Positions 25,882 through 56,211 of a DNA stretch of 64,000 nucleotides are shown here, one piece after another. The stretch covers positions 1,090,997 through 1,154,996 of the forward strand of contig NZ_KV917368.1 in the NCBI RefSeq assembly GCF_002019605.1, read 5' to 3'. Below the pieces are notes generated by a model. It worked only from the letters and a program-made list of their open reading frames with translations, did no database searches and was not told the DNA's origin. Numbering within the stretch: the stretch's first letter is position 1; every line of letters starts with the position of its first letter. The position numbers and the translations under genes are program-made. Source of the stretch: Alkalihalobacterium alkalinitrilicum (lineage in GTDB: Bacteria; Bacillota; Bacilli; Bacillales; Bacillaceae_F).

Positions 25882-26937
25882 ATGGGTAAAATGAAAGCAG
25901 CAGTATATTATGGTCCGCGAGATATTAGAGTCGAAAGTATTGACATTCCAGAAGTTGGCCCAACAGACATTTTATTAAAGGTGGATGCATGTGGCATCTG
26001 TGGCTCAGACGTCCATAGTTATGGAACAGGATTATATATTCAAAAAGGTCAAGTGATGGGCCACGAATATTCTGGAGAAGTGATTCAGGTTGGTAATGAA
26101 GTAGAAGGTATCGAAGTAGGACAAAGAGGAACAGCTTTTCATTCTGGTGTATGTGGCAGTTGTTTCTGGTGTAAAAAAGCCCAATATACTCTTTGTCCAA
26201 ACTTATTTAAAGCTTCAACGGGGTATGGACTTCCAGGTGCTTTTGCAGAATATATTAAAATCTCAAATGCACAACGTGGGATTAGCTTCCATCCCATTCC
26301 AATGGATATGGATAAGTTTACAGCAGCAACGATTGAACCAGTTGGAGTCGCAGCTTATACGGTTAATCAATGTAATCCGCAACCAGGGGACAAAGTTGTC
26401 GTACTCGGTGCTGGTTTGATAGGAAACGCTGTTATGCAAGTGTTTAAAGCGAAAGGAATTGAAACGGTAATCGTAACCGAAGTATCGGAACCTCGATTAG
26501 AATTAGCAAAGCAATTAGGTGCAACCCAAACAATTAATGCGGCAAAAGAAGATGTGTTAGAAAGAATAAAAGATTTAGTCGGTGTCGGTCCTTACCATTT
26601 TAATGAAGGAGCGATGGCTGATATCGTTGTTGATGCAGCAGGTGCACCAGCAGCAGTTGAACAAACATTTGAGATTGTCCGTAGTGGAGGGGTTATTGCT
26701 TTTGTTGGGCTACCAGAAAAAAAGGCATCCATTGATACTACAAAAATTGTCCATAAAGCTCCTAAGATTTTAGGATGTTTAGGAGGCGATATGCAAGAAT
26801 CGATCGAGCTCCTAAGTACTAAAAAGGTCGAAACCAAATCTCTAATTACTCATGTATTTTCAATTGACCATGCTAAGGAAGCGTTTGAAACACAAATGAA
26901 TGCAAGTGAATCAGTCAAAGTAATGATAGAGTATTAA
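25882..26937 (+). CDS. Zinc-dependent alcohol dehydrogenase (2,3-butanediol/threonine dehydrogenase-like)
   Basis: A 351-residue medium-chain dehydrogenase. Catalytic zinc ligands are seen in CGICGSDVH and GHEYSGEV, structural zinc cysteines in CGSCFWCKKAQYTLC, and the NAD-binding turn in VLGAGLIGNAVMQ. The subgroup oxidises secondary alcohols, including 2,3-butanediol and polyols. AAGGAGTG precedes the ATG. It is the first gene after a sigma-54 promoter and cre site, so it likely makes the ketone that enters the island's pathway. The exact substrate is unknown. Confidence 0.88.
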   Translation: MGKMKAAVYYGPRDIRVESIDIPEVGPTDILLKVDACGICGSDVHSYGTGLYIQKGQVMGHEYSGEVIQVGNEVEGIEVGQRGTAFHSGVCGSCFWCKKAQYTLCPNLFKASTGYGLPGAFAEYIKISNAQRGISFHPIPMDMDKFTAATIEPVGVAAYTVNQCNPQPGDKVVVLGAGLIGNAVMQVFKAKGIETVIVTEVSEPRLELAKQLGATQTINAAKEDVLERIKDLVGVGPYHFNEGAMADIVVDAAGAPAAVEQTFEIVRSGGVIAFVGLPEKKASIDTTKIVHKAPKILGCLGGDMQESIELLSTKKVETKSLITHVFSIDHAKEAFETQMNASESVKVMIEY

Positions 26938-26960
26938 AGTTTTCTTTTATCCCACAACAA

Positions 26961-27022
26961 CTGGCAGTAATACCCCCACTTCAAGATTTCGAGTAATCAA
27001 GAAAGATAGTGGAGGGAGAGGA
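26961..27022 (+). repeat. Imperfect hairpin element, copy 2
   Basis: A diverged relative of the element at 14121-14187, keeping the same blocks in the same spacing: CTGG, CCCCACTTCAAG, GAG, CAAGAAAG and AGTGGAGGGAGAGG. It can fold as CCCCCACT against AGTGGAGGG. It lies just after the alcohol dehydrogenase stop. Confidence 0.5.
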
Positions 27023-27066: not shown

Positions 27067-27532
27067 ATGCGCTTAAAAGAAAAAGTAGCCATCATTACTG
27101 GCGCAGGAAGTGGTCAAGGAAAGGCCGCTGCCACGTTGTTTGCAAAAGAAGGCGCAAAAGTTATCATAGCCGAATGGAACGAAAACAATGGAAAGTGGCA
27201 GTATTGTTAATACTTCTTCGTTAAGTGGGTTAAAAGGAGTTACAGGATGTGATGCGTATACTGCTTCGAAAGGGGGGATGATTTCTTTAACGAGAGTGAT
27301 GGCAATCGATTATGGAAAATACAATATACGAGTCAATTGTATATGTCCTGGTGGGATCGCAACTCCAATGATTGAGGTTGCGATGAAGGATGTGACGAAC
27401 TATGACTTTATTCCACTTAAGAGAATAGGAGAATCAGAGGAAGTTGCCAAAACTGCATTATTTTTAGCATCGGATGAATCGAGTTATATAACTGGTGTAA
27501 TTTTGCCTGTAGATGGTGGATTAACCGCGTAA
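27067..27532 (+). pseudogene. Short-chain dehydrogenase with large internal deletion
   Basis: It begins MRLKEKVAIITGAGSGQG after GGGAGGTGAG, reads as a normal SDR for 41 codons, then hits a stop. A second frame at 27188 continues as SGSIVNTSSLSGLKGVTG, with active-site YTASKGG and a normal C-terminus. Compared with the intact paralogues at 29750 and 45856, about 100 codons of the middle are missing and the frame is shifted. The gene is therefore inactive. It may have had the role now served by the 29750 copy. Confidence 0.85.
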
Positions 27533-27700: not shown

Positions 27701-28702
27701 ATGGCCGATATTTACAAAAAAGAAATAAATATTCAAAGCTATGATAAAGATTTTTTAGTTAACTTACTTAGAACAATGGTTAGTATTCGGAGGTTTGATG
27801 AAAATTTAATCCGATTGATGCAAGAAGGGAAAGTTTCTGGTTTTTATCATTCTGGAATTGGTTCAGAAGGTTTATCCGCAGGGTCTATCAATATGTTACG
27901 CGATAGTGACGTCATCTTTTACAATCATAGAGGGTGTAACCAAAAAATTGCTAAAGGCGTTCCTCTTTCTAAACTTTACGGAGATTTTCTTGGTACGACA
28001 CACGGAACAACACGAGGGCTAGGAGCTGGAATTGTTCATAGCGCCGACCCTTCAAGAGGTGTTTTAGGGCAGTGTGGAACAATTGGTTCGCAGTTTAATA
28101 TTGTAGTAGGTACTGGTTATGCATCGAAGGTAAAAGGTACAGATGATGTTAGTGTTTGTTATTTTGGAGACGGTGCAGCTTCAAGAGAACCTCTACATGG
28201 TTCATTAAACTGGGCAAGCATATATAAATTACCGATCGTTTATATTTGTGAAAACAATCAGTATGCGATTTCAAGTCATTATAAAGAAACACATGGTATT
28301 AGAGAACATATCGCTGACTGGGCTTATGGTTATGGAATTCCGAATTATGTTGTCGATGGAAATGATGTACTGCTTATGAATGAAATTACGAAAGAAGCAG
28401 TAGAGAGAGCAAGAAGAGGTGAAGGACCAACATTTATAGAAGCAGAGACTTTCCGTCATCGCGGCCATTATGAAGGTGATCCATATGATTATGTTAATGC
28501 TGAAGAATTAAAGTATTGGAAAGAACAGCGTGATCCAATTAAGAACTTTAAACGTGATTTACAACAAGCAGGTATCATAACAGAAGCTGAGATAGATAAT
28601 TTAGAAAAAGAAATTCAAGATGAAATCCTTGCAGCGATTGAACTAGCAGAATCTGCGCCTGTACCAGGACGCGAAAGAATTTTCGAAGGACTATTTTCAT
28701 AA
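27701..28702 (+). CDS. TPP-dependent dehydrogenase E1 component, alpha subunit (AcoA-like)
   Basis: A 333-residue E1 alpha of the 2-oxo acid/acetoin dehydrogenase type. The thiamine diphosphate motif runs from FGDGAASREPLHG to CENNQYAIS (GDG...NN), and the substrate channel histidine segment is YNHRGCNQKIAKG. Length matches AcoA rather than the longer pyruvate E1 of Gram-negatives. ATG 27701 follows GGGAGAG; a TTG six nt upstream is less likely. With the next gene it forms an alpha2beta2 E1. The E2 and E3 partners are encoded 22-27 kb downstream in the same island. Confidence 0.9.
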   Translation: MADIYKKEINIQSYDKDFLVNLLRTMVSIRRFDENLIRLMQEGKVSGFYHSGIGSEGLSAGSINMLRDSDVIFYNHRGCNQKIAKGVPLSKLYGDFLGTTHGTTRGLGAGIVHSADPSRGVLGQCGTIGSQFNIVVGTGYASKVKGTDDVSVCYFGDGAASREPLHGSLNWASIYKLPIVYICENNQYAISSHYKETHGIREHIADWAYGYGIPNYVVDGNDVLLMNEITKEAVERARRGEGPTFIEAETFRHRGHYEGDPYDYVNAEELKYWKEQRDPIKNFKRDLQQAGIITEAEIDNLEKEIQDEILAAIELAESAPVPGRERIFEGLFS

Positions 28703-28719: not shown

Positions 28720-29697
28720 ATGGCAAAAATTACGATGCGACAAGCAATTATAGATGCAATGCAAGAAGAAATGGCTCATGACGATACAATGGTTGTGTTT
28801 GGAGAAGATGTTGCGAAATTTGGTGGAGCATTTAGTATGACAAAAGGGTTATACGAAGAATTTGGTGGAGTAAGGGTTTTTGATACTCCTATTACCGAGT
28901 CGACAATCGTAGGAGCTGCGCTCGGGTTAGCACTTAGTGGACTTCGGCCAGTGCCTGAGCTTCAGTTTGGAGATTTTGTCGGGGTTGCATTTGATGAAAT
29001 CTACAATAAGTTAGGAAAATGGAAATGGATGCACGGTGGAACGATGGAAGTTCCAGTTACCTTAAGGCTACCAATTGGAATTGCAGGTGGAGCTGGACCT
29101 GAACACTCTCAAAGTCCACAAGCATTATTTATGCATGCTCCTGGTCTATACATTGCGATCCCATCAACTCCTTATGAAGCAAAAGGTCTATTAAAAACAG
29201 CGATTCGTGATAATAACCCTGTGTTATTTTTTGAACATAAGGTGTTGTACGATATGAAAGGCGAAGTACCTGAAGAAGAGTATTTCCTTCCATTAGGAAA
29301 AGCAGATATTAAGCGTGAAGGAACAGATGTCACCATTATTGCGACAGCGTTGCAAGTTCATACTGCTTTAAATGCAGCTAAAGAGTTAGAAAAAGAGGGT
29401 ATTAGTGTTGAGGTTGTAGATCCTAGAACTTTAGCTCCACTTGATAAAGATACGATTTTAAGTTCGGTTAGAAAAACAGGACGCGTCATTATGGTTCATG
29501 AAGAACCGAAAACGGGTGGTATGGGAGCAGAATTATCAGGGATTATCGGTGAGGAAGCATTATTTGACTTACAAGCTCCGTTCCGTAGAATTGGTAGCCC
29601 TGATGTACCAATTGCTCAAAATATTCATTTGGAACAGTATTACCGTCCAAGTGAAGAGCAAATCATTGAAACTGTTAAAGAATTAATGGAGTACTAG
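28720..29697 (+). CDS. TPP-dependent dehydrogenase E1 component, beta subunit (AcoB-like)
   Basis: A 325-residue E1 beta subunit. Family segments seen: VFGEDVAKFGGAFSMTKGL, FDTPITESTIVGAALGLA, PEHSQSPQALFMHAPGL and VDPRTLAPLDKDTI. It starts 17 nt after E1 alpha with an AAGGGGAGG site. Together the subunits would decarboxylate or cleave a 2-oxo acid, acyloin or diketone and pass the acyl group to a lipoyl E2. Confidence 0.92.
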   Translation: MAKITMRQAIIDAMQEEMAHDDTMVVFGEDVAKFGGAFSMTKGLYEEFGGVRVFDTPITESTIVGAALGLALSGLRPVPELQFGDFVGVAFDEIYNKLGKWKWMHGGTMEVPVTLRLPIGIAGGAGPEHSQSPQALFMHAPGLYIAIPSTPYEAKGLLKTAIRDNNPVLFFEHKVLYDMKGEVPEEEYFLPLGKADIKREGTDVTIIATALQVHTALNAAKELEKEGISVEVVDPRTLAPLDKDTILSSVRKTGRVIMVHEEPKTGGMGAELSGIIGEEALFDLQAPFRRIGSPDVPIAQNIHLEQYYRPSEEQIIETVKELMEY

Positions 29698-29749: not shown

Positions 29750-30517
29750 ATGAAATTAAAAGACAAAGTAGCGATCATCACTGGAGCTGGAAGTGGACAA
29801 GGGGCAGCTTCTGCTAGGCTGTTTGCTAGTGAAGGAGCAAAAGTTGTTATTGTAGAATGGAATGAAGAAAACGGGAAAAAGGTGGAGGAAGAAATTTCTC
29901 AAGCTGGTCAAGAAGCTTTATTTATCAAAACAGATATTTCTAAGGAAGAAGATGTCGTGGCAGTCGTTCAACAGGTTATGGATAAATATGGGGGAATTGA
30001 TATTTTATTTAATAATGCGTCGGTTGGATTTTCGGAGCGAAACAAATACAAGATGGCTGCGATTCAAGACACTCCGTTAGAAGATTGGAATAATATTATC
30101 GGAATTAATTTAAATGGTGCTTACTTATTGTGTAGGCATATCCTCCCAATTATGATCAAACAAAATAGTGGAAATATCATTAATAATTCTTCGATGAATG
30201 GTTTAGTCGGAGTAACGGGAGCAGATGCTTATACGGCAGCAAAAGGTGGGATCGTTTCATTAACGAGAGTTATGGCAGTAGATAACGGGAAACACAATAT
30301 TCGTGTAAATTGTATTTGTCCTGGTGCAATCGATACCCCAATGATCGCAGAAGTATTGGAAGATCGGAATATCTCAGAAAACTTTAATGGAAATCCACTC
30401 GGTAGGGTTGGAAAACCAGAGGAAATTGCAACGGCTGCTTTATTTCTAGCATCAGATGATTCAAGTTTTATTACTGGATTAATTATGCCTGTTGATGGCG
30501 GATGGGGTGCACTCTAA
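29750..30517 (+). CDS. Short-chain dehydrogenase/reductase (SDR)
   Basis: A 255-residue classical SDR: cofactor turn TGAGSGQG, structural ILFNNAS, catalytic Ser in INNSSMNG, and YTAAKGG (Tyr-x3-Lys). An acidic residue after strand 2 (VEWNEENGK) suggests NAD(H) preference. It is closely similar to the broken SDR at 27067 and to the SDR at 45856, so these arose by duplication within the island. Likely an alcohol/ketone interconversion in the pathway. Confidence 0.9.
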   Translation: MKLKDKVAIITGAGSGQGAASARLFASEGAKVVIVEWNEENGKKVEEEISQAGQEALFIKTDISKEEDVVAVVQQVMDKYGGIDILFNNASVGFSERNKYKMAAIQDTPLEDWNNIIGINLNGAYLLCRHILPIMIKQNSGNIINNSSMNGLVGVTGADAYTAAKGGIVSLTRVMAVDNGKHNIRVNCICPGAIDTPMIAEVLEDRNISENFNGNPLGRVGKPEEIATAALFLASDDSSFITGLIMPVDGGWGAL

Positions 30518-30646: not shown

Positions 30647-30669
30647 AAAATTCTTAAACGAAATAAAAA
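30647..30669 (+). promoter_or_regulatory. Shared upstream box 2 (candidate activator site)
   Basis: AAAATTCTTAAACGAAA plus an A-rich tract, 71 bp upstream of the second sigma-54 -24 GG. It matches box 1 in all but about one position, with similarity extending about 15 bp further upstream (GAAGAGT). Confidence 0.55.
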
Positions 30670-30716: not shown

Positions 30717-30732
30717 TGGCATAAATATTGCA
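30717..30732 (+). promoter_or_regulatory. Sigma-54 promoter 2 (ABC importer block)
   Basis: TGGCATAAATATTGCA with GG and GC 12 nt apart, 208 nt before the first ABC ATPase gene. Confidence 0.8.
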
Positions 30733-30816: not shown

Positions 30817-30939
30817 AACTAATGCCGCCTAAGGAGGTGCTTCAACAAAAAATAAAAGAACACGTAATTCCTGATTAATAATGAACTGTGATGAAATGAA
30901 ATCCCCTTGAGATTAATGAGAAAAGGAGGCGGGATATTA

Positions 30940-31902
30940 ATGGGAACTGTATTGGAGGTCCAAGATCTGCGAGTAGGTCGTGGTAATAAGGAACAGTTTA
31001 CTGCCATTTTAGATAACATTAGTTTTAAAGTAAATCATGGAGAATCCTTGGCTGTAGTAGGAGAAAGTGGTTGTGGAAAAAGTATGACTGCTCTATCTAT
31101 TATGGGTCTACTTCCGCAAAATATTGAAGTTGGATCTGGAAATATTCAGTTTGATGCAAAAGATTTAACGACGCTTACATCAAATGATATGAACAATATA
31201 CGAGGAAAAGACATTTCGATGATCTTTCAGGAACCAATGACTTCGTTAAACCCGTCTTTCACCATTGGCAATCAACTAGCAGAAGTGTTTAAATACCATA
31301 CCAACTATAGTGCCAAAGAAATTAAAGAGCGTTCTATTGATGTATTAAAAAAAGTACGGATACCAGATCCAGCAGAAAAGCTAGAAGTGTATCCACATCA
31401 GCTATCGGGTGGAATGCGTCAACGCGTAATGATTGCGATGGCATTGGCGTGTAACCCAAAAATTCTCATTGCAGATGAACCGACAACGGCTCTTGATGTA
31501 ACAATACAAGCTCAAATCTTGGACTTATTAAACGAAATCCAAGAAACAGAACAGATGACGATTATTATGATCACTCATGACCTGGGTGTAGTCGCTGAAA
31601 CTTGCCATCGTGCGGTTGTCATGTATGCGGGTCAGGTAATTGAGGAAGGAACGGTTGAAGAAATATTCGAATCACCACATCATCCATATACGAGAGGCTT
31701 AATGCTTTCTGCGCCTCGATTAGGAGATAAAAAGGAGAAGCTTCATGTTATCCCTGGATCAGTTCCTGATATCGACAATATGCCAATTGGATGCCGATTT
31801 GCGCCTCGGTGTGAGTTTGTAACGGATATTTGTCGAGAGGAGCCACCATTGCTAGAAGAAGTAGGAGATGAGAGGAGGGTTCGTTGTTGGAACAAACTGT
31901 AG
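30940..31902 (+). CDS. Peptide/nickel-type ABC importer ATPase (DppD/OppD-like)
   Basis: A 320-residue ABC ATPase with Walker A GESGCGKS, signature LSGGMRQR, Walker B ILIADEP, and the C-terminal oligopeptide-importer tail with cysteines (CRFAPRCEFVTDIC), which in this family can carry an iron-sulfur cluster. ATG 30940 follows AAGGAGG; an upstream TTG in frame is not supported. It is the first gene of a complete importer (two ATPases, binding protein, two permeases). In this island it probably imports the pathway substrate rather than peptides. Confidence 0.9.
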   Translation: MGTVLEVQDLRVGRGNKEQFTAILDNISFKVNHGESLAVVGESGCGKSMTALSIMGLLPQNIEVGSGNIQFDAKDLTTLTSNDMNNIRGKDISMIFQEPMTSLNPSFTIGNQLAEVFKYHTNYSAKEIKERSIDVLKKVRIPDPAEKLEVYPHQLSGGMRQRVMIAMALACNPKILIADEPTTALDVTIQAQILDLLNEIQETEQMTIIMITHDLGVVAETCHRAVVMYAGQVIEEGTVEEIFESPHHPYTRGLMLSAPRLGDKKEKLHVIPGSVPDIDNMPIGCRFAPRCEFVTDICREEPPLLEEVGDERRVRCWNKL

Positions 31903-32909
31903 TTAAAGAAGAAAGAGTTCCCAAAAAAGAACAAGCTGAAGACATGTTGTTAGTTGTAAAAGATTTAAAGAAACATTATCCAGTAAAAAATGGCTTTTTT
32001 GGTGGACAGACAAACACGATTAAAGCAGTTGACGGAGTTAACTTTGAAGTTAAAAAAGGTGAAACATTTAGTATTGTAGGAGAATCAGGTTGTGGGAAAA
32101 GTACGACAGGAATGTGCTTAAATCATTTAATTAGTCCCACTTCAGGAGAAATCCATTTCAATGGCCAGACGTTTAAAAATAGTAATAAGACACAAATCAA
32201 AGAGCTTCGTAGACAAATGCAGGTGATCTTCCAGGACCCTTATAGTTCGCTTAACCCGAAACATACAATTAAGCGGATCATTAGTGAACCGTTAGTTATT
32301 AATCGCATGGGAACTAAATCGGAAATTGAAGATCGAGTGAAATCACTTGTGAGCTTAGTAGGCTTAGGTTCCCATCATTTAAATCGGTATCCACATGAAC
32401 TTTCTGGAGGTCAGAAGCAACGCATTGGCATTGCCCGCGCACTTGCATTAAATCCAGAGTTAATCATTTGCGATGAACCAGTTTCAGCATTAGATGTCTC
32501 TATTCAATCGCAAATTCTGAATTTATTTGAAGAGTTACAGCAGAAATTAAACTTAACGTATATATTTATATCCCATGATTTAAGTGTTGTTGAGCATATT
32601 AGTGATCGAGTAGCAGTTATGTATTTGGGGAAAATTGTTGAGCAAGGGACAAGAGAAGAAATTTTTTCTAATCCACAGCACCCTTATACCCAAGCGTTAT
32701 TATCTTCGGTCCCAATTGCCGAACCAAAATTAAAAAACAAGAAAAATCGCATTATCTTAAAAGGAGATCCACCTAGCCCTAAAAATCCACCAAAAGGATG
32801 TCATTTCCATACTCGATGTCCACATAAAGTAGCCGCATGCGAAGCTTCTTATCCTGAAATGAAAAAAGTATCTGATGAGCATCAGGCCGCATGTCATTTA
32901 TTAGCTTAG
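31887..32909 (+). CDS. Peptide/nickel-type ABC importer ATPase (DppF/OppF-like)
   Basis: The second ATPase, about 340 residues: Walker A GESGCGKST, Q-loop VIFQDPYSSLNPK, signature LSGGQKQR, Walker B LIICDEP, and tail CPHKVAACEASYP. Starts TTG-TTG at 31884/31887 after AGGAGG; 31887 has the better spacing. It overlaps the end of the first ATPase gene by some 16 nt, so the two are co-translated and would act as a heterodimer. Confidence 0.9.
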   Translation: MEQTVVKEERVPKKEQAEDMLLVVKDLKKHYPVKNGFFGGQTNTIKAVDGVNFEVKKGETFSIVGESGCGKSTTGMCLNHLISPTSGEIHFNGQTFKNSNKTQIKELRRQMQVIFQDPYSSLNPKHTIKRIISEPLVINRMGTKSEIEDRVKSLVSLVGLGSHHLNRYPHELSGGQKQRIGIARALALNPELIICDEPVSALDVSIQSQILNLFEELQQKLNLTYIFISHDLSVVEHISDRVAVMYLGKIVEQGTREEIFSNPQHPYTQALLSSVPIAEPKLKNKKNRIILKGDPPSPKNPPKGCHFHTRCPHKVAACEASYPEMKKVSDEHQAACHLLA

Positions 32910-38504: not shown

Positions 38505-38527
38505 AAAATTCTTACAAGTAATAAAAA
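38505..38527 (+). promoter_or_regulatory. Shared upstream box 3 (candidate activator site)
   Basis: AAAATTCTTACAAGTAATAA, a diverged form of boxes 1 and 2, 74 bp upstream of the third sigma-54 -24 GG. Confidence 0.4.
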
Positions 38528-38577: not shown

Positions 38578-38593
38578 TGGCATGTTAATTGCA
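38578..38593 (+). promoter_or_regulatory. Sigma-54 promoter 3 (monooxygenase/TRAP block)
   Basis: TGGCATGTTAATTGCA with GG and GC 12 nt apart, 87 nt before the Dabb gene. Confidence 0.8.
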
Positions 38594-38679
38594 TTAATTT
38601 AATATACAGGTCCTAAAAAATGGTTACTCACCTTTAGGATTGGATAACTAAATTATATTTTTAAATGGAGGTAAAGAAA

Positions 38680-44687: not shown

Positions 44688-44741
44688 GAAAGTAATATAA
44701 TTTGAGATTTTAAATGAACGAATGATGAAAGGATGAGAAGT

Positions 44742-46620: not shown

Positions 46621-46679
46621 ACACAACTGTTGTTGTACAAATTTGTTCAAATATTATTTAAGGTTAGGAGTTGATCATC

Positions 46680-47777
46680 ATGATGAGAAAAGGAATATCT
46701 TTTCTTCTGCTTGTGTTCTTAATGGCCATCGTCATCGTTGGATGCGGTAATGAGCCAACGTCACAATCGGATAATACAGAAGGTTCTTCTGAAACACCTT
46801 CTGAAAATGGTACTACAGCGGATAACGACCAAACATGGACGCTCACATTTGCTTCAAGTGGAGGACCTAATGATCCGTATACGAGGGATACTATTTATCC
46901 ATGGATGGAAAAGGTAACTGAATTAACTAACGGTCGAGTCGATTTTGATTTTTACCCATCTGGACAATTAGGTAGTTTAGTAGACCATTATCAAATAGTA
47001 CGTGACGGTATTGCAGATATTGCTAGTTATGCGGCAGTTTATATTCCGAATGACATGCCAATTAGTAGTTCGGTTTTACCATTACCTGGATTAAGTCAAT
47101 CTGGTTATGACGGAACAATGGCCTATAAAGACATCGTTCATCAAAGTCCGCTATTGGAAACTGACTTCACGAATAGTGGCGTGTATCCAGTTTATGTACA
47201 GGTAACCGAAACATTTGACTTCTATACAAAAGGGGATGAAATTAGAGTTCCTGAAGATTTAAAAGGGAAACAAGTACAAGGTCTTGGCGGAGTGTTAACC
47301 GAATTAATTAGCTTTATCGGTGCGACACCGATTTCTGTCACACAAAATGAAATGTTTGAAGCGTTCGACCGCGGAATCATTGAAGTGGCCCATATTTATC
47401 CATCGACCGCCGATACGTATGGAATTACAGACCTCGTAAAATACGCAACAGTAGGTGCAAGAGCAGGTACAGGTCCAGTAGGTTTTGTCATAAATCTCGA
47501 TTTGTGGAATGAGTTTCCAGAAGACATCAGAGAAGCTATTCTTCAAGCTTCAGATGAAGTAGCCGAAGGGGGAAGTAAAGGAAACTATGAAGATTCTCTC
47601 AGAACGCTAGGAGAATGGGAAGAACAAGGTAAGGCGATCCATACTTTAACTGCCGAAGAGCAAGCCGAGTGGGATAAAGTATATGAAGAATTTAGAGAAC
47701 ACTACCTCTCAGATGTAAGTGATGACCATAGAAAAGTCCTCGAAATGTTTCAAGAAGCTCTTAAAAACTATCAATAA
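46680..47777 (+). CDS. TRAP transporter solute-binding lipoprotein (DctP-like)
   Basis: A 365-residue lipoprotein (lipobox VIVGC, acidic Ser-rich linker) with the DctP fold: LTFASSGGPNDPYTRDTIYPWMEKV, then LKGKQVQGLGGVLTELISFIGATP, where the conserved Arg of many DctP ligand sites is not obvious. That may mean a ligand other than a simple carboxylate. ATG 46680 is 9 nt from TAGGAG. It is separated from its permeases by five genes. Confidence 0.85.
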   Translation: MMRKGISFLLLVFLMAIVIVGCGNEPTSQSDNTEGSSETPSENGTTADNDQTWTLTFASSGGPNDPYTRDTIYPWMEKVTELTNGRVDFDFYPSGQLGSLVDHYQIVRDGIADIASYAAVYIPNDMPISSSVLPLPGLSQSGYDGTMAYKDIVHQSPLLETDFTNSGVYPVYVQVTETFDFYTKGDEIRVPEDLKGKQVQGLGGVLTELISFIGATPISVTQNEMFEAFDRGIIEVAHIYPSTADTYGITDLVKYATVGARAGTGPVGFVINLDLWNEFPEDIREAILQASDEVAEGGSKGNYEDSLRTLGEWEEQGKAIHTLTAEEQAEWDKVYEEFREHYLSDVSDDHRKVLEMFQEALKNYQ

Positions 47778-47942: not shown

Positions 47943-49556
47943 TTGAAAAACCAGATCGGCTTAACTAAGTTTTGCCTACTCATTTTCAGTTTGATTTTTA
48001 TTTTAGCGGCTTGTACATCTCCGTCAACTTCAGAACCAACATCAAATGACTCATCTGAAAAAGAAGGTTCACCTACTTCCGAGGCATTAGAAGGAGAAAA
48101 AGTATTAAAAGTAGCACTACCTGCACCTCCTGGGAACCTTGATCCTCATTTTGTCGCGACTCACTCGGAGATGGAAATTGTCCAGCCCATTTTCAATGGG
48201 TTATTACGTTATCAACCAGGAACGGCTAGCTTTGATACGATAGAAGGAGACTTAGCTGAAAATTGGGAAGTTAGTGACGACGGATTAACCTGGACGTTTC
48301 AATTACGAGAAGGTGTTCAATGGCACAAAGGATATGGCGAGTTCACTTCTGACGATGTTAAATGGTCCATTGAAAGGGTTATGGACCCTGAAGTAGGGTC
48401 ACCACAAGCGTCAATGTTTAAGTTTGTAGAAAGTGTAGAAGCTCCTGACAAATACACCGTCGAAATTACATTAAAACAACCGTATCCAGCGTTTATATTA
48501 AGTTTAGTCGTAGATGGAGTTGGTGGCGGTGCAATAATGAAAAGAGAAGCAGTAGAAGGTGGTGGAGAAGATCCTGAGAAACTAGTAGGAACGGGACCTT
48601 TTATGCTAGAAGCACATTCACCAGGTGAAAGTGCCATTTTAATTAAAAACACCGAATACTTCCGAGGCGAGCCAAAACTAGATCAAATTGAATTATATGT
48701 GATGAGAGATAATGCGGCTCGTGAGGTGGCGATGGATCGCGGTGATATTCATATGACGTACGGTGAACCCGATGGTATGTGGGTTCAACAGCGAAGCCAA
48801 AACGAAGATCTTGATATTCTAATTTCAGGACAGTCGATGATTTGGACGATTCACCTCAATAAAGAGATGGCACCAATGGATAATATTCTCGTTAGAAAAG
48901 CGATTTCCTATGCGATCGACTACGATAGTCTCATGCATTCTCTCGGGACGGATGTCGCAAGGCCCGCAAAATCCATTCTTAGTGATGGCGTTTTTGGTCA
49001 TATAGAAACAGGTCAATATGAGTATAACCCTGAAAAAGCAAAAGAATTATTAGCCGAGGCAGGGTATCCTGATGGACTCACTCTTCCAGAAACATTAACA
49101 CCTAATTTACCTGCTTATATACCAGTGAACAGCTTCATTCAGGAACAATTAAGACAAGTTGGTATTGAAGCCCCAATGCAGCAAGTCGATTTACCAACAT
49201 GGATGCCAGCTCTTTATGGTGGACAAAATCCTTTTAACTTCCAAATAGGTGTTCAAAGGCCTCATGGAGTTCCAAATTTATTTCGAGTTTGGCATTCAGA
49301 GGGCCCTGCAAACTTTACTAAATATAGTGGATCTGACCAACTCATAGAGCAAGCGGAATTAGAGTTAGATGAGCAAAGGTCATTAGAACTAATGGCGCAA
49401 ATTCAACAAGAAATAAAGGATGATTATATCTCTTTACCAATGATTGAAACAGTAATGACAAATGCCGTTAGAAAAGAAGTTGAGCTAGGGTATGAATTAA
49501 TCGATACAGCTATTTATATGGCTCCAAAGTATGAAACAACCGATTTATTAAAATAA
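47943..49556 (+). CDS. ABC importer substrate-binding lipoprotein (family 5), second copy
   Basis: A 537-residue lipoprotein (lipobox ILAAC) very similar to that at 33127 along its whole length (NLDPHFVATHSEMEIVQPIFNGLLRY). No permease or ATPase follows, so it probably feeds the importer at 30940-36660 with a second ligand. It starts at TTG 47943 after AAGGAGG and is controlled by a perfect cre site. Confidence 0.9.
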   Translation: MKNQIGLTKFCLLIFSLIFILAACTSPSTSEPTSNDSSEKEGSPTSEALEGEKVLKVALPAPPGNLDPHFVATHSEMEIVQPIFNGLLRYQPGTASFDTIEGDLAENWEVSDDGLTWTFQLREGVQWHKGYGEFTSDDVKWSIERVMDPEVGSPQASMFKFVESVEAPDKYTVEITLKQPYPAFILSLVVDGVGGGAIMKREAVEGGGEDPEKLVGTGPFMLEAHSPGESAILIKNTEYFRGEPKLDQIELYVMRDNAAREVAMDRGDIHMTYGEPDGMWVQQRSQNEDLDILISGQSMIWTIHLNKEMAPMDNILVRKAISYAIDYDSLMHSLGTDVARPAKSILSDGVFGHIETGQYEYNPEKAKELLAEAGYPDGLTLPETLTPNLPAYIPVNSFIQEQLRQVGIEAPMQQVDLPTWMPALYGGQNPFNFQIGVQRPHGVPNLFRVWHSEGPANFTKYSGSDQLIEQAELELDEQRSLELMAQIQQEIKDDYISLPMIETVMTNAVRKEVELGYELIDTAIYMAPKYETTDLLK

Positions 49557-49631: not shown

Positions 49632-49659
49632 ATAAGAAATTTATTAGTAAATTTCTTAT
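49632..49659. repeat. Perfect inverted repeat in the intergenic region
   Basis: ATAAGAAATTTA-TTAG-TAAATTTCTTAT, 12-bp arms, 63 bp before the fourth sigma-54 promoter. No clear copy of the shared upstream box is present here, so this may be the activator site or a terminator remnant. Confidence 0.45.
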
Positions 49660-49721: not shown

Positions 49722-49737
49722 TGGCATGAAAAATGCA
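49722..49737 (+). promoter_or_regulatory. Sigma-54 promoter 4 (MBL/E2/regulator/E3 block)
   Basis: TGGCATGAAAAATGCA: the -24 element is identical to promoter 1 and GG/GC are 12 nt apart; the -12 has ATGCA instead of TTGCA. It lies 177 nt before the MBL gene. Confidence 0.7.
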
Positions 49738-49913: not shown

Positions 49914-50546
49914 GTGAAGCCGTTAATTATAAAAAAATACGTCAATGGTGAAATGAAGACAAACAGTTATGTGATTACAGATAGTGAAAAGTCCTTCTGT
50001 ATAGTAATTGACCCTGGTGGAAATCCAGAAAACATTCTCAATTACATCGGTAACCAAAAAGTTGACTATATATTACTAACCCATTGTCACTTTGAACATA
50101 TTTCTGGTTTAAAACAATTAAAGCGACATACAGATGCTTCAGTGATCGTTCATCATTCAGAAGCAGAATGGTTGTTGAGTCCTTCTTTAAATCTTTCAGA
50201 TCAAAATGAAAATCCTTTAATCTGCGACTGGCCAGATGTAATGTTAAATGGTGATGAGTTAATAAAGTGTAGTAATTCTACGATTAAAGCCATTCACACT
50301 CCTGGTCATTCACCTGGAAGTACATGTTTTCTGTTAAATGATATGTATTTGTTTTCTGGTGATACATTATTAGCAGGGCTAGTTGGACATACGAATGGTC
50401 CGTATGGTGATAGCGTCTTATTAAAAAAATCTATTAAAACTAAATTACTCCAACTTGACGAAAGTATCATAGTATATCCAGGTCATGGGCATGAGACAAC
50501 TATGCAAACAGAAAAGAAAAATAATCTATGTTCAACTATTTCTTGA
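49914..50546 (+). CDS. Metallo-beta-lactamase fold hydrolase (GloB-like)
   Basis: A 210-residue MBL hydrolase with metal motif THCHFEHISG (HxHxEH, Glu replacing the usual Asp), HTPGHSPGSTCF, FSGDTL and PGHGHET. The group includes thioesterase/glyoxalase II-like enzymes. It starts at GTG 49914 after AAGGAGG. As the first gene of the E2/E3 block it may hydrolyse a thioester or lactone intermediate. Confidence 0.82.
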   Translation: MKPLIIKKYVNGEMKTNSYVITDSEKSFCIVIDPGGNPENILNYIGNQKVDYILLTHCHFEHISGLKQLKRHTDASVIVHHSEAEWLLSPSLNLSDQNENPLICDWPDVMLNGDELIKCSNSTIKAIHTPGHSPGSTCFLLNDMYLFSGDTLLAGLVGHTNGPYGDSVLLKKSIKTKLLQLDESIIVYPGHGHETTMQTEKKNNLCSTIS

Positions 50547-50670
50547 CCTAAAATGGTTTCTTGAAATAAAGGGATATCAAAGAACATTAACACAATAATA
50601 GAACTTACATGATATACCTTTTTAACATATAAAAATAGAATGAAAAATTAATCTAAAGGTGGAAAAAACA

Positions 50671-51408
50671 ATGAATGTTCTCGTCATAGGTGGTTCGAAG
50701 GGGATTGGGAAAGCAACAGCGCTTCGTTTTAGCGAAAAGGATAATAATATATTCATTAATTATGCTAGTGATGATCATGCGGCAAAAGAAACGTTCGAAG
50801 AGGTAAAGCAAAAAGGGGCAAATGTTCATTTGTTAAAGGCTGATGTTGGTGATTCAGTCGCTATTAAAACAATGATGGATAAAATTAAGAATGAAGTAGA
50901 TCAGCTTGATTTAATTGTTCATTGTGCAGTAGCTGTAATTCCTGGGAATGCTTTAGATTTATCGAAAGAAGAATGGGATCGGGCAGTTGCTGTTAGTAAT
51001 TTTTCGATCATTGAAATAATAAAAGAAGCGATGCCTTTACTTCGTTATGGTTCGACCTTTTTAGCATTATCAAGCCGAGGAGCGACACATGCGATTGGAA
51101 ATTATGCTGCGTTAGGGACAACGAAAGCTTTTACGGAAGCATTAGTTCGTTATTTAATGCTTGAACTAGCACCAAAAGGGATCCGAATTAATGTTGTATC
51201 CCCAGGCACACTTTATACGGATGCTTTGGAAAAAGTATTTCCAGGGCGAGCAGAAGAGCTCGTTAAAATGGTAAACGAAAAAAATCCTAGTAATCGTGGA
51301 ATTTCGTTTGAAGATGTAACAGATACGATTGCATTTTTAGCCAGTCCACAAGCTCAAATGATTCAAGGAAGAGTTATTCATATTGATGGAGGGATTGGAC
51401 TTATATAA
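50671..51408 (+). CDS. SDR family oxidoreductase (FabL-like)
   Basis: A 245-residue SDR with cofactor loop GGSKGIGKATA and the spaced catalytic pair NYAALGTTKAFTEALVRYL, which with VSPGTLYTDALEKVFPGR recalls FabL-type enoyl reductases. It lacks the standard NNAG (HCAVAV instead). ATG 50671 is 8 nt after AAAGGTGG; GTG 50659 is part of that site. In this context it may reduce an enoyl or keto intermediate rather than serve fatty acid synthesis. Confidence 0.8.
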   Translation: MNVLVIGGSKGIGKATALRFSEKDNNIFINYASDDHAAKETFEEVKQKGANVHLLKADVGDSVAIKTMMDKIKNEVDQLDLIVHCAVAVIPGNALDLSKEEWDRAVAVSNFSIIEIIKEAMPLLRYGSTFLALSSRGATHAIGNYAALGTTKAFTEALVRYLMLELAPKGIRINVVSPGTLYTDALEKVFPGRAEELVKMVNEKNPSNRGISFEDVTDTIAFLASPQAQMIQGRVIHIDGGIGLI

Positions 51409-51565: not shown

Positions 51566-52732
51566 ATGATTGAAGTTAAAATGCCAAGATTAGGAGTAAC
51601 AATGCAAAATGGTACGGTTTCAACTTGGTTAGTTGAAGAAGGGGATGAAGTTAATAAAGGGGATTATTTATTTGAATTAGAAACCGAAAAGTCAACTTTA
51701 GAAATTGAAGCACAAGCTTCTGGAGTTTTAAGAAAGATTATTGTTCCTGAAGATCAAGAAGTTCCTGTGAATACCGTCATTGCGATTATGACAGAAACAG
51801 CAACTGATGACTTAGATCTTTCCATTTATGAAAATGCAGTCGATACTAATGAAGCAAAAGAACAACCAAATAATAAAAACCCAGAAACAAACAGTACTTC
51901 AACACAACCTAATACTATTAGAAGAGGAAGTATTTCACCTAGAGCACGTAAGTTAGCTAAAGAACTAGGAGTAGCGATTGAAAGTATTACAGGTACTGGG
52001 AAAGATGGACTAATTACAGAAGATGATGTTCGAAATGCTGGAGGTTCAAATCATGCTATCCCGATTAAAGAAAAGATAGCATTAAATCATGTCAAAAAAG
52101 CGATGTCAGAAAATATGTCAAAGAGTTGGACAACTACTCCACAGTTCACGCAAATGGTCTCAGTTAATATGAAAAATGTATTAAGAGTTAAAAAAGAATG
52201 GAGTGACGTTTCACTTAATGATATTTTTGTAAAAGTGGTTGGAAATATAGCAAAAGAAAATTCGATTGTTAATAGTAAATTAGAGGGACAAGAAATTGTA
52301 ATCTACGATGAGGTTAATGTTTCAGTAGCCGTTAATAGTCAATACGGACTTGTTGTTCCTGTTGTAAAGAACACAGAAACAAAATCAGTTTCAGACATCT
52401 CTAAAGAAATTAATCAACTTGCGAAAAAAGCCGAGACTAATCAATTAACATTAGATGACTATGCCAATGGCACAATCACTGTTTCCAATCTCGGTAGCTT
52501 AGGTATTGAAATGGGTACACCTATCATTAACATACCTCAATCGACCATTGTATTTGTAGGCAGTATTGTAAAGAAACCGATTGTAACTGATGATGACAAG
52601 ATTGTAGTTGCGCCGATGATGACGCTATCGATATGTTATGATCATAGATTTATTGATGGTGTTACGGGAGCAAAGTTTACGAATGATCTTAAAAGAGCAT
52701 TAGAAAATCTTGAAAGTAATGATTTAATGTAA
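51566..52732 (+). CDS. Dihydrolipoamide acyltransferase E2 (AcoC/PdhC-like)
   Basis: A 388-residue E2: lipoyl domain at residues 1-77 with the lipoylated lysine in ETEKSTLE (Lys42), an Asn/Thr-rich linker, a peripheral subunit-binding domain (ISPRARKLAKELGVAIESITGTGKDGLITEDDV), and the acyltransferase core ending in YDHRFIDG. It starts at ATG 51566 after GGAGTGGGA; the frame runs open further upstream without a site. It would join E1 (27701-29697) and E3 (54796). Confidence 0.92.
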   Translation: MIEVKMPRLGVTMQNGTVSTWLVEEGDEVNKGDYLFELETEKSTLEIEAQASGVLRKIIVPEDQEVPVNTVIAIMTETATDDLDLSIYENAVDTNEAKEQPNNKNPETNSTSTQPNTIRRGSISPRARKLAKELGVAIESITGTGKDGLITEDDVRNAGGSNHAIPIKEKIALNHVKKAMSENMSKSWTTTPQFTQMVSVNMKNVLRVKKEWSDVSLNDIFVKVVGNIAKENSIVNSKLEGQEIVIYDEVNVSVAVNSQYGLVVPVVKNTETKSVSDISKEINQLAKKAETNQLTLDDYANGTITVSNLGSLGIEMGTPIINIPQSTIVFVGSIVKKPIVTDDDKIVVAPMMTLSICYDHRFIDGVTGAKFTNDLKRALENLESNDLM

Positions 52733-52780: not shown

Positions 52781-54775
52781 TTGAAAAACAATCATTATTC
52801 TAAAAAGCATTTTCGATCTTTTAACATCTCAGAAGAAGAAAAAGTATTAAAAAATACTTGGAGAAATTACTTTAAAAAGGGAATAGACTTAGGCGAAGTA
52901 AGACCTGTTATTATGGATTCTTGGAAGCGTTCTCAAAGCTATAATATTAACCCAAACTGGGATCAAGCTACAACCATTTGTAAACAAAAAGAAATCTTGA
53001 AAAGAAGAGAAACGAATAAAGATATATTAACGTTAATCCGTCCATTTATGGATGACCTGTTTGAGATAGTTAAAGGGACAGATAGTATCATAGCTTTTGC
53101 TGATAAGGACGGCATTGTACTAGAGTTATTTGGGGATAGTGAAATTGCCTTAAATGCCGCTTCTGTTAATTTTAAAGTTGGTGTAGATATGTGCGAAAAA
53201 TCTAGTGGTACCAATTCGATAGCGTTATCACTAGTACATGGGAAGGCCATACAAGTTGTTGGACCAGAACATTATTGTGTAGTCTGGCATACATCTCATT
53301 GCTCAAGTGCACCAATTAAAGATCCATATAGTAATGAAATTATCGGCGTTATAACATTAGTAGGCTACTACCGTTCAACCCACCCTCATTCATTTGGCTT
53401 GGTGCGAACGGCTGCTGATACGATTATGAGATTAATCGAACAAAATGGAATGAAAAAAGAAAAGTATATGATTAACAATTATTTTAGTGCCGCATTAAAT
53501 TCAGTATCGGACGGCATTTTAATTGTTAATCGCCTAGGTGAAATCATTCGAATTAATAAAATTGCTGCTCACCTATTGAAAATTTCACTAGTAGAAAATA
53601 AAAAATATCAAATAAGCGATATTCCTCAATTAGAGCCACTTTCTAAATACATTGAAGACTCCATTTCAGGTAATGAAATTATTCTTCAAGACGAGTTAAA
53701 TATGTTATATGAAGAGAAGTTCAAGTTATTATTTACTTCACGAAAAATCGTCGTTGAAGGTCAATATCTCGGAAATATTATTATTTTGAAGAAGAAAGTG
53801 AATAAAGAGCTAAAACAGCATTCAGCAAAATATAATTTCACTTCACTAATCGGTAAAGATCAAGATTTTATTAAAGCAATCAAACTAGCTTCAAAAGCTG
53901 CTAAGACTGATAAAAGCATACTCATTATCGGGGAAAGTGGTACAGGAAAGGAACTTTTCGCACAAGCCATCCATAATGAAAGTGAGAGACAATTTGAAAG
54001 TTTTGTTGCCATTAATTGTGCTGCAATTCCAAAAGATTTAATTTCAAGTGAATTGTTTGGTTATGCCGAAGGTGCCTTTACAAGTGCGGTTAAGGGTGGA
54101 AAGATGGGGAAATTTGAGGCAGCTAACGGCGGAACTATCTTCCTAGATGAAATTGGTGATATGGCTTTAGAGTTACAGGCACACCTTCTCCGAGTCTTAG
54201 AGGAAAGAGAAATTACGCCAGTCGGTTCTAATGTTTCAAAGCCCATTGATGTTAGAGTCATTGCAGCAACGAATAAAGATTTATTTTCATTAGTCGAAGA
54301 AAATAAATTCCGGTTAGACCTATTATATCGATTAAATGTCATTTCTATAAAAGTTCCACCTTTGCGAAAAAGAAAACAAGATATTGAGTTATTTATTAAA
54401 CACTATTTACCTACAAAAAAGATATGTCCAAATGTTTTAAACTATTTTTATGAATATGATTGGCCAGGAAACCTTCGTGAGATGCGAAATGTTATGGAAC
54501 AACTAGATATTTTTTGTGAGGAAGAAATGGTTACTGAGGAATATTTACCAGAATACATTAGAGCAGATTTTCTTGAAAAAGAAGAAAATACAAGTCTCTA
54601 TCAATCCGTAGCAAATGAAACAAAGAAAGAAACGATGGTTATTGCCTTAGAGAATAGTAGTAGTGTTTCAGATGTCGCAAAAAAACTTGGAGTTTCACCA
54701 AGTACATTATATAGATGGGCAAGCGAATATCAAATTAACATGAAAGATTATTTCAAAAAAACAAAACAAGCTTAG
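52781..54775 (+). CDS. Sigma-54-dependent transcriptional activator (AcoR-like)
   Basis: A 664-residue enhancer-binding protein. The N-terminal region has a GAF sensor (GVDMCEKSSGTNSIALSL; GPEHYCVVWHTSHCSSAPI), then a PAS-like segment. The AAA+ domain has Walker A GESGTGKE (about residue 384), the sigma-54 contact loop as GAFTSA rather than GAFTGA (about 431), and Walker B GGTIFLDEIGDM. A Fis-type helix-turn-helix ends the protein (VAKKLGVSPSTLYRWA). It starts at TTG 52781 after AGGAGGG. It lies between E2 and E3 genes, as in aco loci, and is the likely activator of the four sigma-54 promoters. Confidence 0.92.
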   Translation: MKNNHYSKKHFRSFNISEEEKVLKNTWRNYFKKGIDLGEVRPVIMDSWKRSQSYNINPNWDQATTICKQKEILKRRETNKDILTLIRPFMDDLFEIVKGTDSIIAFADKDGIVLELFGDSEIALNAASVNFKVGVDMCEKSSGTNSIALSLVHGKAIQVVGPEHYCVVWHTSHCSSAPIKDPYSNEIIGVITLVGYYRSTHPHSFGLVRTAADTIMRLIEQNGMKKEKYMINNYFSAALNSVSDGILIVNRLGEIIRINKIAAHLLKISLVENKKYQISDIPQLEPLSKYIEDSISGNEIILQDELNMLYEEKFKLLFTSRKIVVEGQYLGNIIILKKKVNKELKQHSAKYNFTSLIGKDQDFIKAIKLASKAAKTDKSILIIGESGTGKELFAQAIHNESERQFESFVAINCAAIPKDLISSELFGYAEGAFTSAVKGGKMGKFEAANGGTIFLDEIGDMALELQAHLLRVLEEREITPVGSNVSKPIDVRVIAATNKDLFSLVEENKFRLDLLYRLNVISIKVPPLRKRKQDIELFIKHYLPTKKICPNVLNYFYEYDWPGNLREMRNVMEQLDIFCEEEMVTEEYLPEYIRADFLEKEENTSLYQSVANETKKETMVIALENSSSVSDVAKKLGVSPSTLYRWASEYQINMKDYFKKTKQA

Positions 54776-54795
54776 ATGTTAAAGGAGATACACTA

Positions 54796-56211
54796 ATGGA
54801 TAATAATTATGATTTGACCATCCTTGGCGGCGGAACAGGTGGATATGTTGCAGCAATTCGCGCATCACAGTTCGGTCTAAAAGTAGCTATTATTGAAAAA
54901 GGAAAGTTAGGAGGGACATGCCTTCATCGTGGATGTATACCTAGTAAATCATTGTTAAGGAGTGCTGAAGTATATTCTCATGCGAAAACAATGGATAGTT
55001 TCGGGGTTAGCGCCTCTGATGTAACATTAGACTTTTCAAAAGTCCAGGAACGAAAAGAGATGATTGTGAATCAATTATACCAAGGCGTTCAATACTTAAT
55101 GAAAAAAGGACAAATTACTGTCTATAATGGGACAGGTAAAATCGTTAGTCCAAACGCTGGTGCTAGTAAATCGGTCATTCTAGAAGTTCAAAAACAAAAC
55201 GGTGAAATAGTAGAACTGATTTCAAAAAACTTAATCATTGCTACGGGGTCAAGTCCAAGGGACCTCCCTGGTTTAGTAACGGATGAGGAATTTATTATTA
55301 ATTCCGATCATGCACTACAACTTGAACAATTACCTTCCTCTATAGCGATTATTGGTGGAGGAGTGATTGGTATCGAGTGGGCATCGATGCTTGCTGATTT
55401 TGGTGTAGAAGTATCTGTTATTGAAACGATGGATCGAATTTTACCTCAAGAAGATCAAGAAATTTCTAAAGAAGTACAAAGAATATTAAAGAAAAAAGGG
55501 ATCAAAGTGCTAACTAGTGCTAAAGTTCAAGATATTTCAAAGCAAGATGGTGAAGTAGAAGTATCATTAGACGTAAAAGGGAAAAGCAAATCTTTATCTT
55601 CAGAGAAAGTCCTACTATCTGTGGGTCGTAAAGCAAATATTGAAAATATTGGACTTGAAACTACAAGAATTGATGTTCAAAAAGGTGTAATCCAAACGAA
55701 TGAATTTTGCCAAACATCGAAACCGAATGTCTATGCGATCGGGGATGTTATTGGAGGGTTACAATTAGCTCATGTAGCTTCTCATGAAGGCTTGCTTGCA
55801 GTTGAGCATATTACGAATAATAACCCTGTACCGATAGATTATAGTTCAATTCCGAAATGTGTATATAGCCAACCTCAAGTAGCAAGTGTAGGTTTAACCG
55901 AAGAGGAAGCCGTTATAAATGGTTACTCGATAAAAACTGGTAAATTTCCATTTAAAGCGATTGGAAAGGCGTTAGTTTACGGGGAAGCTGATGGATTTGC
56001 CAAAGTAGTTATTGATAATGAAACCAATAAACTATTAGGCGTCCACATGGTTGGACCAAGTGTAACAGATCTAATTTCAGAAGCAGGGCTGGCAAAGTTT
56101 CTCAATGCTACCCATTTGGACTTAGCGCACTCTATACATCCACACCCTTCGTTGAGTGAAATATTTGGTGAAGTTGCTCTAATATCAGATAATATTCCAA
56201 TTCATATGTAA
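54796..56211 (+). CDS. Dihydrolipoyl dehydrogenase E3
   Basis: A 471-residue FAD disulfide reductase: FAD motif GGGTGGYVAA, redox disulfide GGTCLHRGCIPSKS, NAD motif GGGVIGIEWASMLAD, second FAD segment YAIGDVIGG, and the dimer-interface IHPHPSLSE. It reoxidises the lipoyl groups of E2. It follows the regulator gene by 20 nt with AAAGGAGA. Confidence 0.95.
   Translation: MDNNYDLTILGGGTGGYVAAIRASQFGLKVAIIEKGKLGGTCLHRGCIPSKSLLRSAEVYSHAKTMDSFGVSASDVTLDFSKVQERKEMIVNQLYQGVQYLMKKGQITVYNGTGKIVSPNAGASKSVILEVQKQNGEIVELISKNLIIATGSSPRDLPGLVTDEEFIINSDHALQLEQLPSSIAIIGGGVIGIEWASMLADFGVEVSVIETMDRILPQEDQEISKEVQRILKKKGIKVLTSAKVQDISKQDGEVEVSLDVKGKSKSLSSEKVLLSVGRKANIENIGLETTRIDVQKGVIQTNEFCQTSKPNVYAIGDVIGGLQLAHVASHEGLLAVEHITNNNPVPIDYSSIPKCVYSQPQVASVGLTEEEAVINGYSIKTGKFPFKAIGKALVYGEADGFAKVVIDNETNKLLGVHMVGPSVTDLISEAGLAKFLNATHLDLAHSIHPHPSLSEIFGEVALISDNIPIHM

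Follow-up and report, generated by a model that had tools for sequence, protein, structure and literature searches.

A predicted AcoR/sigma-54 regulon in Alkalihalobacterium alkalinitrilicum combines luciferase-like monooxygenases with an acetoin-dehydrogenase-like complex

Two kinds of described system stand closest to the locus considered here, and both are summarized from the accessible portions of the reports cited. The first is the aco operon, for which the AcoR promoter tested in Bacillus thuringiensis is TTGGCACGGTACTTGCA (PMC4428206). The second is the pairing of a luciferase-like monooxygenase (LLM) with a hydrolase: in Sphingobium sp. AntQ-1 an LLM gene is contiguous with an alpha/beta hydrolase gene and strongly induced on anthraquinone, its transcript count is the highest among the most up-regulated genes, and the metabolites fit ring opening via a lactone, which the authors attribute to a type II Baeyer–Villiger monooxygenase (BVMO) and lactone hydrolysis (PMC9836352). 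An LLM of the Caenibius tardaugens pdc cluster is reported to perform Baeyer–Villiger oxidation of progesterone, the flavin reductase presumably being encoded elsewhere (PMC12239570). Here we describe a gene island at positions 25882–56211 of a 64,000-nucleotide stretch of Alkalihalobacterium alkalinitrilicum (contig NZ_KV917368.1; the whole stretch is referred to as the window), in which two LLM genes and an alpha/beta hydrolase gene stand among genes for an acetoin-dehydrogenase-like E1/E2/E3 complex. We propose, with about even confidence, that a type II Baeyer–Villiger-like monooxygenase and esterase branch has been added to a module for cleavage of an acyloin or vicinal diol, all within one regulon of four operons. 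The likely role of the island is probably the breakdown of a ketone or alcohol. In a literature search, mostly of titles and abstract openings, no described locus had this combination of genes, in agreement with the initial annotation; in their accessible portions, a Rhodococcus opacus 1CP paper merely lists LLM genes (PMC13101518) and a SAR202 paper predicts many type II BVMOs with no closer link to the island (PMC5395668).

Every gene type named in the initial annotation was recovered, all on the plus strand, from open reading frame (ORF) lists and Pfam and NCBIfam scans (Table 1): a secondary-alcohol dehydrogenase (ADH), short-chain dehydrogenases/reductases (SDRs, four of them intact), LLM1 and LLM2, a Dabb protein, an alpha/beta hydrolase, a metallo-beta-lactamase (MBL)-fold hydrolase, the E1/E2/E3 set, and transporters of three kinds, namely Opp/Dpp ATP-binding cassette (ABC), major facilitator superfamily (MFS) and tripartite ATP-independent periplasmic (TRAP). 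To these the present analysis adds a broken SDR, a second solute-binding lipoprotein (OppA2), a GAF-PAS-AAA-HTH activator resembling AcoR, and four sigma-54 promoter matches with an associated upstream element. From the promoter matches we deduced four transcription units, which are predicted operons. The first reads ADH, broken SDR, E1 alpha, E1 beta and SDR1; the second OppD, OppF, OppA1, OppB, OppC and MFS; the third Dabb, LLM1, TRAP DctQ, DctM, LLM2, SDR2, alpha/beta hydrolase, SDR3, DctP and OppA2; and the fourth MBL, FabL-like SDR, E2, the AcoR-like activator and E3.

The exact pattern TGGCATN5WTGCA matched four times in the window, always on the plus strand (0.06 expected; four were reached in 0 of 100 shuffles), and each match precedes the first gene of one of the four units. 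The same promoter type is carried by the Enterococcus plasmid aco operon, and an rpoN gene is present in the genome. A looser scan allowing two mismatches did not rise above chance (27 found, 21.6 expected), so the promoter claim rests on the exact sites. Comparison of the regions upstream of the four promoters yielded a second element, AAAWTTCTTA, whose five copies in the 64 kb all lie inside these promoter regions; at promoter 4 it takes the form AAATTTCTTA, 73 bp before the -24 element, as part of a 26-bp inverted repeat, and the same 26 palindrome bases are present in a congener (G001). All four occurrences of the promoter–element composite in the 5.5-Mb genome fell in the island. G001 had three, each at a corresponding promoter of the sister island there, and G003 and G012 had one apiece, at a distance from the E1 cassettes of these genomes; the composite was absent from 17 other genomes, and a reversed-pattern control gave no match in any of the 21. 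Without the element, sigma-54-like sites are more frequent (30 genome-wide, against 4 for the reversed pattern), and the specificity therefore comes from the upstream element. With a shared promoter type and an element combination found only here in the genome, the genes look like one unit, as the initial annotation had grouped them, and the assignment of the monooxygenase operon and the E1/E2/E3 operons to a single predicted AcoR/sigma-54 regulon is well supported by sequence. Inverted repeats with T-rich tails stand before each promoter and after E3 (-7.7, -17.9, -18.7, -17.8 and -14.1 kcal/mol), the first of them weak; a generic terminator scan was not above shuffles (9 against 10.9; 13 against 9.2) and flagged two of the five named stems. 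The sigma-54-contact loops of three activators read GAFTSA in the window (52781–54775), GAFTNA in G001 (L049, 10343–12346) and GSFTGA in G012 (L037, 5410–7401). Two other accounts of the gene grouping were considered and rejected: chance co-location of four operons, the composite pattern being confined to the island in its own genome, and a recent mobile island, since GC lies at 0.34–0.39 throughout and for none of the island genes was the best call an integrase or transposase family.

LLM1 and LLM2 are 71% identical to each other, and close relatives were few in the genomes sampled. At E 1e-40 LLM1 matched one of 120 relatives, its own genome, and at E 1e-60 LLM2 matched five of 397 genomes of the order, its own included, the other four at 39–43% identity; two Cytobacillus species with LLMs at 62–63% came from another collection, and LLM2 had no match in a phage collection at E 1e-20. 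Relatives at further loci were gathered from a scan of genome contigs (nine loci) and from ten opened records among 18 matching plasmids, with genes called as longest ORFs; a few genes lost in this way (L004, L011) were seen by search or annotation. An alpha/beta hydrolase gene lay beside, or one gene from, all 27 LLM genes counted at 25 loci outside the own genome, on the same strand and with an intervening gene in one pair, a count that includes close kin (L004/L075, L006/L007, L008/L009/L013 and four G127 paralogues) and so is not one of 27 independent events. The hosts include Cytobacillus, Immundisolibacteraceae, actinobacteria, rhizobia, Caballeronia and a haloarchaeon; for the haloarchaeon and for the second LLM gene of L081 the pairing was taken from record annotation. 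The count excludes L012, where the contig breaks off within the LLM gene, an only distantly related LLM (25% identity) at 16281 of L011, and a gene annotated as LLM class in L003 (7341–8339) with no match to the window LLMs. The oxygen insertion followed by hydrolysis that the initial annotation had suggested fits this pairing and, as far as the accessible portion of the report goes, the anthraquinone case (PMC9836352).

Partner genes also bear on the cofactor and the substrate class. Flavin reductase, riboflavin kinase or ribB/ribBA genes were found at eight of the 12 LLM loci inspected, the remaining four having a gene annotated merely as NAD(P)H-dependent oxidoreductase, and these flavin-supply genes point to flavin mononucleotide (FMN) as the probable LLM cofactor. 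Two Rhodococcus loci extend into catechol 1,2-dioxygenase, and a Caballeronia locus has maleylacetate reductase about 4 kb away; such neighbours would fit a route from aryl ketone to phenol ester and on to hydrolysis. Two Cytobacillus loci, L006 and L007, offer the monooxygenase another setting, with CoA transferase and acyl-CoA carboxylase genes next to those for LLM, hydrolase, riboflavin kinase, flavin reductase and FMN reductase (the family scans covering chiefly L006), and on Neorhizobium plasmids (L005, L081) two LLM–hydrolase pairs lie near annotated thiamine pyrophosphate-requiring proteins and succinate-semialdehyde dehydrogenase.

The most serious alternative concerns the chemistry of this branch: LLM1 and LLM2 might cleave C–N or C–S bonds or oxidise aldehydes, as RutA, SsuD and luciferase do, instead of acting as Baeyer–Villiger enzymes. 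The fold is common to all of these. An LLM1 model from a nine-row alignment (mean pLDDT 73.8, pTM 0.82), which replaced a single-sequence model with mean pLDDT 32.2, is predicted to have the bacterial luciferase fold near diketocamphane monooxygenase, other luciferase-fold enzymes scoring similarly; its best Foldseek neighbours were 2i7g and RslO1, then diketocamphane monooxygenase (ranks 4–7), with luciferases close behind. In the LLM profile search 7bip scored 114.3 bits, luciferase 71.2 and 3,6-diketocamphane monooxygenase 58.1, a modest margin over MsuD (46.0), SsuD (38.7) and RutA (30.0). RutA systems likewise employ an alpha/beta hydrolase and a flavin reductase, and this too would suit cleavage of other bonds. 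On the other side, the ring-cleavage genes beside the LLM at the two Rhodococcus loci fit aryl ketones, and the AntQ-1 pair, likened here by gene type, is anthraquinone-induced with metabolites that fit opening of a lactone ring, according to the accessible text (PMC9836352). We consider the alternative chemistry unlikely, while ranking it first among the competing explanations.

The second component, the E1/E2/E3 complex, is complete by family scans and motif check, with ThDP (thiamine diphosphate) binding in E1 alpha, the lipoyl lysine and acyltransferase motifs in E2 and the redox disulfide in E3. Relatives of E1 alpha were found in five of 199 relatives, the same five as among 397 genomes of the order with the own genome included, and at seven loci in all, the six others being 72–92% identical. 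ADH, E1 beta and E2 accompany E1 alpha at all seven, the E2 gene belonging to a distant operon in the window and in G001. An SDR1-like gene and MBL were each present at five of seven (at one of the two loci without MBL the contig ends), and an AcoR-like gene at three. The broken SDR sits between ADH and E1 alpha, where a second cassette of the own genome (L032) has an intact SDR, and an intact SDR1 follows E1 beta. Two further E1/E2/E3 sets of the own genome (L039 and L040, at about 0.93 and 1.78 Mb) have TRAP-like and SDR genes and, judged by eye, acyl-CoA genes as neighbours, so that the genome holds several unusual ThDP complexes. In the tree, for which the program warned of long branches, E1 alpha and its six relatives form a separate clade on a long branch with support 100/100, outside the canonical AcoA clade, with identities to the 24 other E1 alphas in the comparison that do not exceed 42% (37% between the window E1 alpha and that of the Enterococcus plasmid Aco). 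Judged from its sequence, E1 alpha is not a canonical acetoin dehydrogenase.

This placement bears directly on the explanation that the island is an ordinary acetoin/2,3-butanediol regulon, in which E1/E2/E3 is the acetoin dehydrogenase of the organism and the LLM block is a functionally unrelated hitch-hiker. An AcoR-like activator, dehydrogenases, E1/E2/E3 and sigma-54 promoters are indeed the textbook aco set, and the congener has the core without the LLM block. Moreover, the Enterococcus Aco E1 alpha matched 15 of 61 genomes at E 1e-70 (eight of them at 62–75% identity) and had no match in the own genome at that threshold, so the island complex could take its place. Against this, no canonical or near-canonical Aco protein compared exceeds 42% identity with the E1 alpha, which forms part of a separate, strongly supported clade; the ADH is 28% identical to the Enterococcus butanediol dehydrogenase; the ABC importer, MBL and FabL-like SDR of the core are absent from the Enterococcus aco operon; and a separate copy of both the shared element and the promoter precedes the LLM operon. 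On balance an ordinary acetoin regulon seems rather unlikely.

The remaining possibility, that the complex is a 2-oxo acid dehydrogenase, catalysing oxidative decarboxylation, in an island for degrading an acid imported by TRAP, appears improbable: for it speak cassette L032, a paralogue near TRAP, SDR, acyl-CoA ligase, thiolase and (by eye) CoA transferase genes, the one oxo-acid-like residue of E1 alpha among nine columns that tell Aco and oxo acid enzymes apart, and the 28 of 28 Protein Data Bank (PDB) matches of E1 alpha that are oxo acid dehydrogenases (non-discriminating, since none is named an acetoin enzyme), and against it the three Aco-like columns and five like neither, which leave these columns unable to discriminate a ketol from an oxo acid substrate, a midpoint-rooted tree, with the long-branch warnings, that sets pyruvate and branched-chain oxo acid dehydrogenases apart from the window clade and Aco-like rows, and family scans that found no transaminase among the island genes.

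How the two components are connected is best seen in the congener. The G001 island comprises ADH, E1 alpha, E1 beta, SDR1, OppDFABC, MFS, MBL, FabL-like SDR, E2, AcoR and E3 (identities of 92% for E1 alpha, 96% for E1 beta, 82% for AcoR and 77% for E3), and the core thus exists there without the monooxygenase branch. DNA similarity to G001 ends at the end of the MFS gene (38217) and restarts at the palindrome (49629), so that the monooxygenase/TRAP genes, with their own predicted promoter and element, constitute an 11.4-kb unit gained here or lost in G001. The block holds relatives of core genes, G001 OppA1 being 64% identical to OppA2 and G001 SDR1 64% identical to SDR3. The G001 island (L034) lies near genes resembling, by eye, those of homogentisate and kynurenine degradation, a neighbourhood that differs from that of the window. 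A wider reading, in which the monooxygenase branch came or went as an 11.4-kb unit equipped with an activator site of its own, is put forward only tentatively. The absence of the LLM block between MFS and MBL in G001 weighs against one linear route, and five other E1 cassette loci likewise lack it; the single chain ending at the E1 complex that the initial annotation had drawn, if taken as an obligatory linear pathway, is not supported. Of the initial annotation as a whole, the grouping of the genes is supported and the step of oxygen insertion with hydrolysis fits the LLM–hydrolase pairing, while the order of steps and the acyl-CoA product stay putative.

We propose that the AcoR-like activator would switch on the four operons via sigma-54, the promoters and elements being visible in the DNA and the binding and activation putative. 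In the core, a ketol may be formed through oxidation of an alcohol or vicinal diol by ADH and the SDRs. E1/E2/E3, using ThDP and lipoate, may then split the ketol, or a diketone derived from it, into an acyl-CoA and a smaller carbonyl compound, as the gene families suggest. In the branch, LLM1 and LLM2 would be FMN monooxygenases of the luciferase/diketocamphane type, receiving reduced FMN from a reductase encoded elsewhere; fold, partner genes and the published analogue suggest that they insert oxygen beside a ketone and that the alpha/beta hydrolase then opens the ester or lactone. The ABC, TRAP and MFS systems would move substrates, and the branch would join the carbon flow of the core. Most likely the oxygenase–esterase branch turns a ketone into something that the core or central metabolism can use.

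Several observations weigh against the proposal of an oxygenase branch within an AcoR-controlled cleavage regulon. By number alone the copies of AAAWTTCTTA are not exceptional (2.1 expected; five were reached in 7 of 100 shuffles), and the 10-base element was chosen from these very promoter regions, so it is fairly judged by where its copies lie, by the lack of copies elsewhere and by conservation in G001. The contact loop of the activator is GAFTSA instead of the GAFTGA that the Enterococcus aco regulator has. Neither LLM gene directly adjoins the hydrolase gene, SDR2 intervening in the case of LLM2. No flavin reductase was found in the island, and a search of the genome for the Flavin_Reduct family placed four such genes elsewhere. 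None of the 12 LLM loci L003–L014, several of them on contigs of only 3–6 kb, showed an E1, E2 or E3 match. A single-sequence PDB search with LLM1 gave 10 matches, none of them the diketocamphane enzyme, and the top fold match is an Agrobacterium monooxygenase with no stated function. Finally, at a position where the 24 other E1 alphas in the comparison all carry E, the island protein has G, and because of this even the cleavage chemistry stays putative.

The coordinates of the features are collected in Table 1. The alpha/beta hydrolase has its nucleophile elbow and ADH its zinc-binding motif; the FabL-like SDR scored 214.3 bits against a FabL cut-off of 328 and is therefore not named FabL. 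PDB searches with ADH, SDR1, DctP and MBL indicated no substrate; the best ADH matches were of threonine and sorbitol type. Shortly upstream of the island is an array of nine tRNA genes (23151–24047), and downstream a sensor histidine kinase (57569–58987) is split into two ORFs by an in-frame stop just before the likely histidine motif.

Table 1. Features of the island, in window positions.
Feature	Position	Strand	Basis or remark
Upstream element AAAATTCTTA	25553..25562	+	starts 72 bp before -24 element of promoter 1
Predicted sigma-54 promoter 1 TGGCATGAATTTTGCA	25625..25640	+	before ADH-E1-SDR operon; matching site in congener (L033)
Zinc-dependent medium-chain dehydrogenase, ADH (threonine/sorbitol/butanediol dehydrogenase type)	25882..26937	+	family scan, PDB search
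Broken SDR	27067..27532 (approximate)	+	N and C parts in different frames; lacks ~290 bp compared with SDR1
E1 alpha (ThDP), divergent clade	27701..28702	+	family scan, tree, motifs
E1 beta	28720..29697	+	family scan
SDR1	29750..30517	+	family scan
Upstream element AAAATTCTTA	30647..30656	+	starts 70 bp before -24 element of promoter 2
Predicted sigma-54 promoter 2 TGGCATAAATATTGCA	30717..30732	+	before Opp-MFS operon; matching site in congener (L033)
Two Opp/Dpp-type ABC ATPases	30907..31902, 31884..32909	+	family scan
SBP_bac_5 lipoprotein OppA1 and two permeases	33127..34731, 34807..35742, 35764..36660	+	family scan
MFS transporter	36833..38242	+	family scan
Upstream element AAAATTCTTA	38505..38514	+	starts 73 bp before -24 element of promoter 3
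Predicted sigma-54 promoter 3 TGGCATGTTAATTGCA	38578..38593	+	before monooxygenase operon
Dabb-domain protein	38665..38967	+	family scan
LLM1 (Bac_luciferase family)	39030..40274	+	family scan, PDB profile search, fold model
TRAP transporter DctQ, DctM	40526..41041, 41065..42354	+	family scan
LLM2 (Bac_luciferase family)	42596..43864	+	family scan
SDR2	43923..44687	+	family scan
Alpha/beta hydrolase, GHSLGG motif	44733..45554	+	family scan, motif
SDR3	45856..46620	+	family scan
TRAP solute-binding protein DctP	46671..47777	+	family scan
Second SBP_bac_5 lipoprotein OppA2	47943..49556	+	family scan
Palindromic upstream element TAAGAAATTTATTAGTAAATTTCTTA	49633..49658	+	second half starts 73 bp before -24 element of promoter 4
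Predicted sigma-54 promoter 4 TGGCATGAAAAATGCA	49722..49737	+	before MBL-E2-AcoR-E3 operon; matching site in congener (L033)
MBL-fold hydrolase, glyoxalase-II-like	49914..50546	+	family scan
FabL-like SDR, Y-x6-K	50659..51408	+	family scan, motif
E2: one lipoyl domain, E3-binding domain, acyltransferase	51566..52732	+	family scan, motifs
AcoR-like sigma-54 activator (GAF, PAS, AAA+, HTH)	52781..54775	+	family scan
E3 dihydrolipoyl dehydrogenase	54796..56211	+	TIGR01350 572.8 bits, above cut-off

The island offers a predicted regulon that is directly testable, with a fixed signature of promoter and element, and its inducers would point to the substrate. If the proposal is correct, it would represent a second E1 subfamily cleaving ketols and a candidate type II Baeyer–Villiger system tied by regulation to such a complex. 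Among the known systems, the AntQ-1 pair resembles the island in its LLM and alpha/beta hydrolase, a likeness of gene types, and the accessible portion of that report mentions no E1/E2/E3 alongside the pair (PMC9836352). The Caenibius LLM belongs to a steroid context and is likened to the island LLMs by its description in the accessible part of its report (PMC12239570). The diketocamphane monooxygenases, which are type II BVMOs, match in fold and profile but share only 19% identity over the LLM fold alignment. With the aco operons of the Enterococcus plasmid (L045) and B. thuringiensis the island shares the sigma-54 promoter type and activator, E1 alpha and beta, E2, E3 and an alcohol dehydrogenase. 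Unlike those operons, it has E2, AcoR and E3 in a separate predicted operon, and to the aco set it adds the ABC, TRAP and MFS transporters, MBL, the FabL-like SDR and the monooxygenases.

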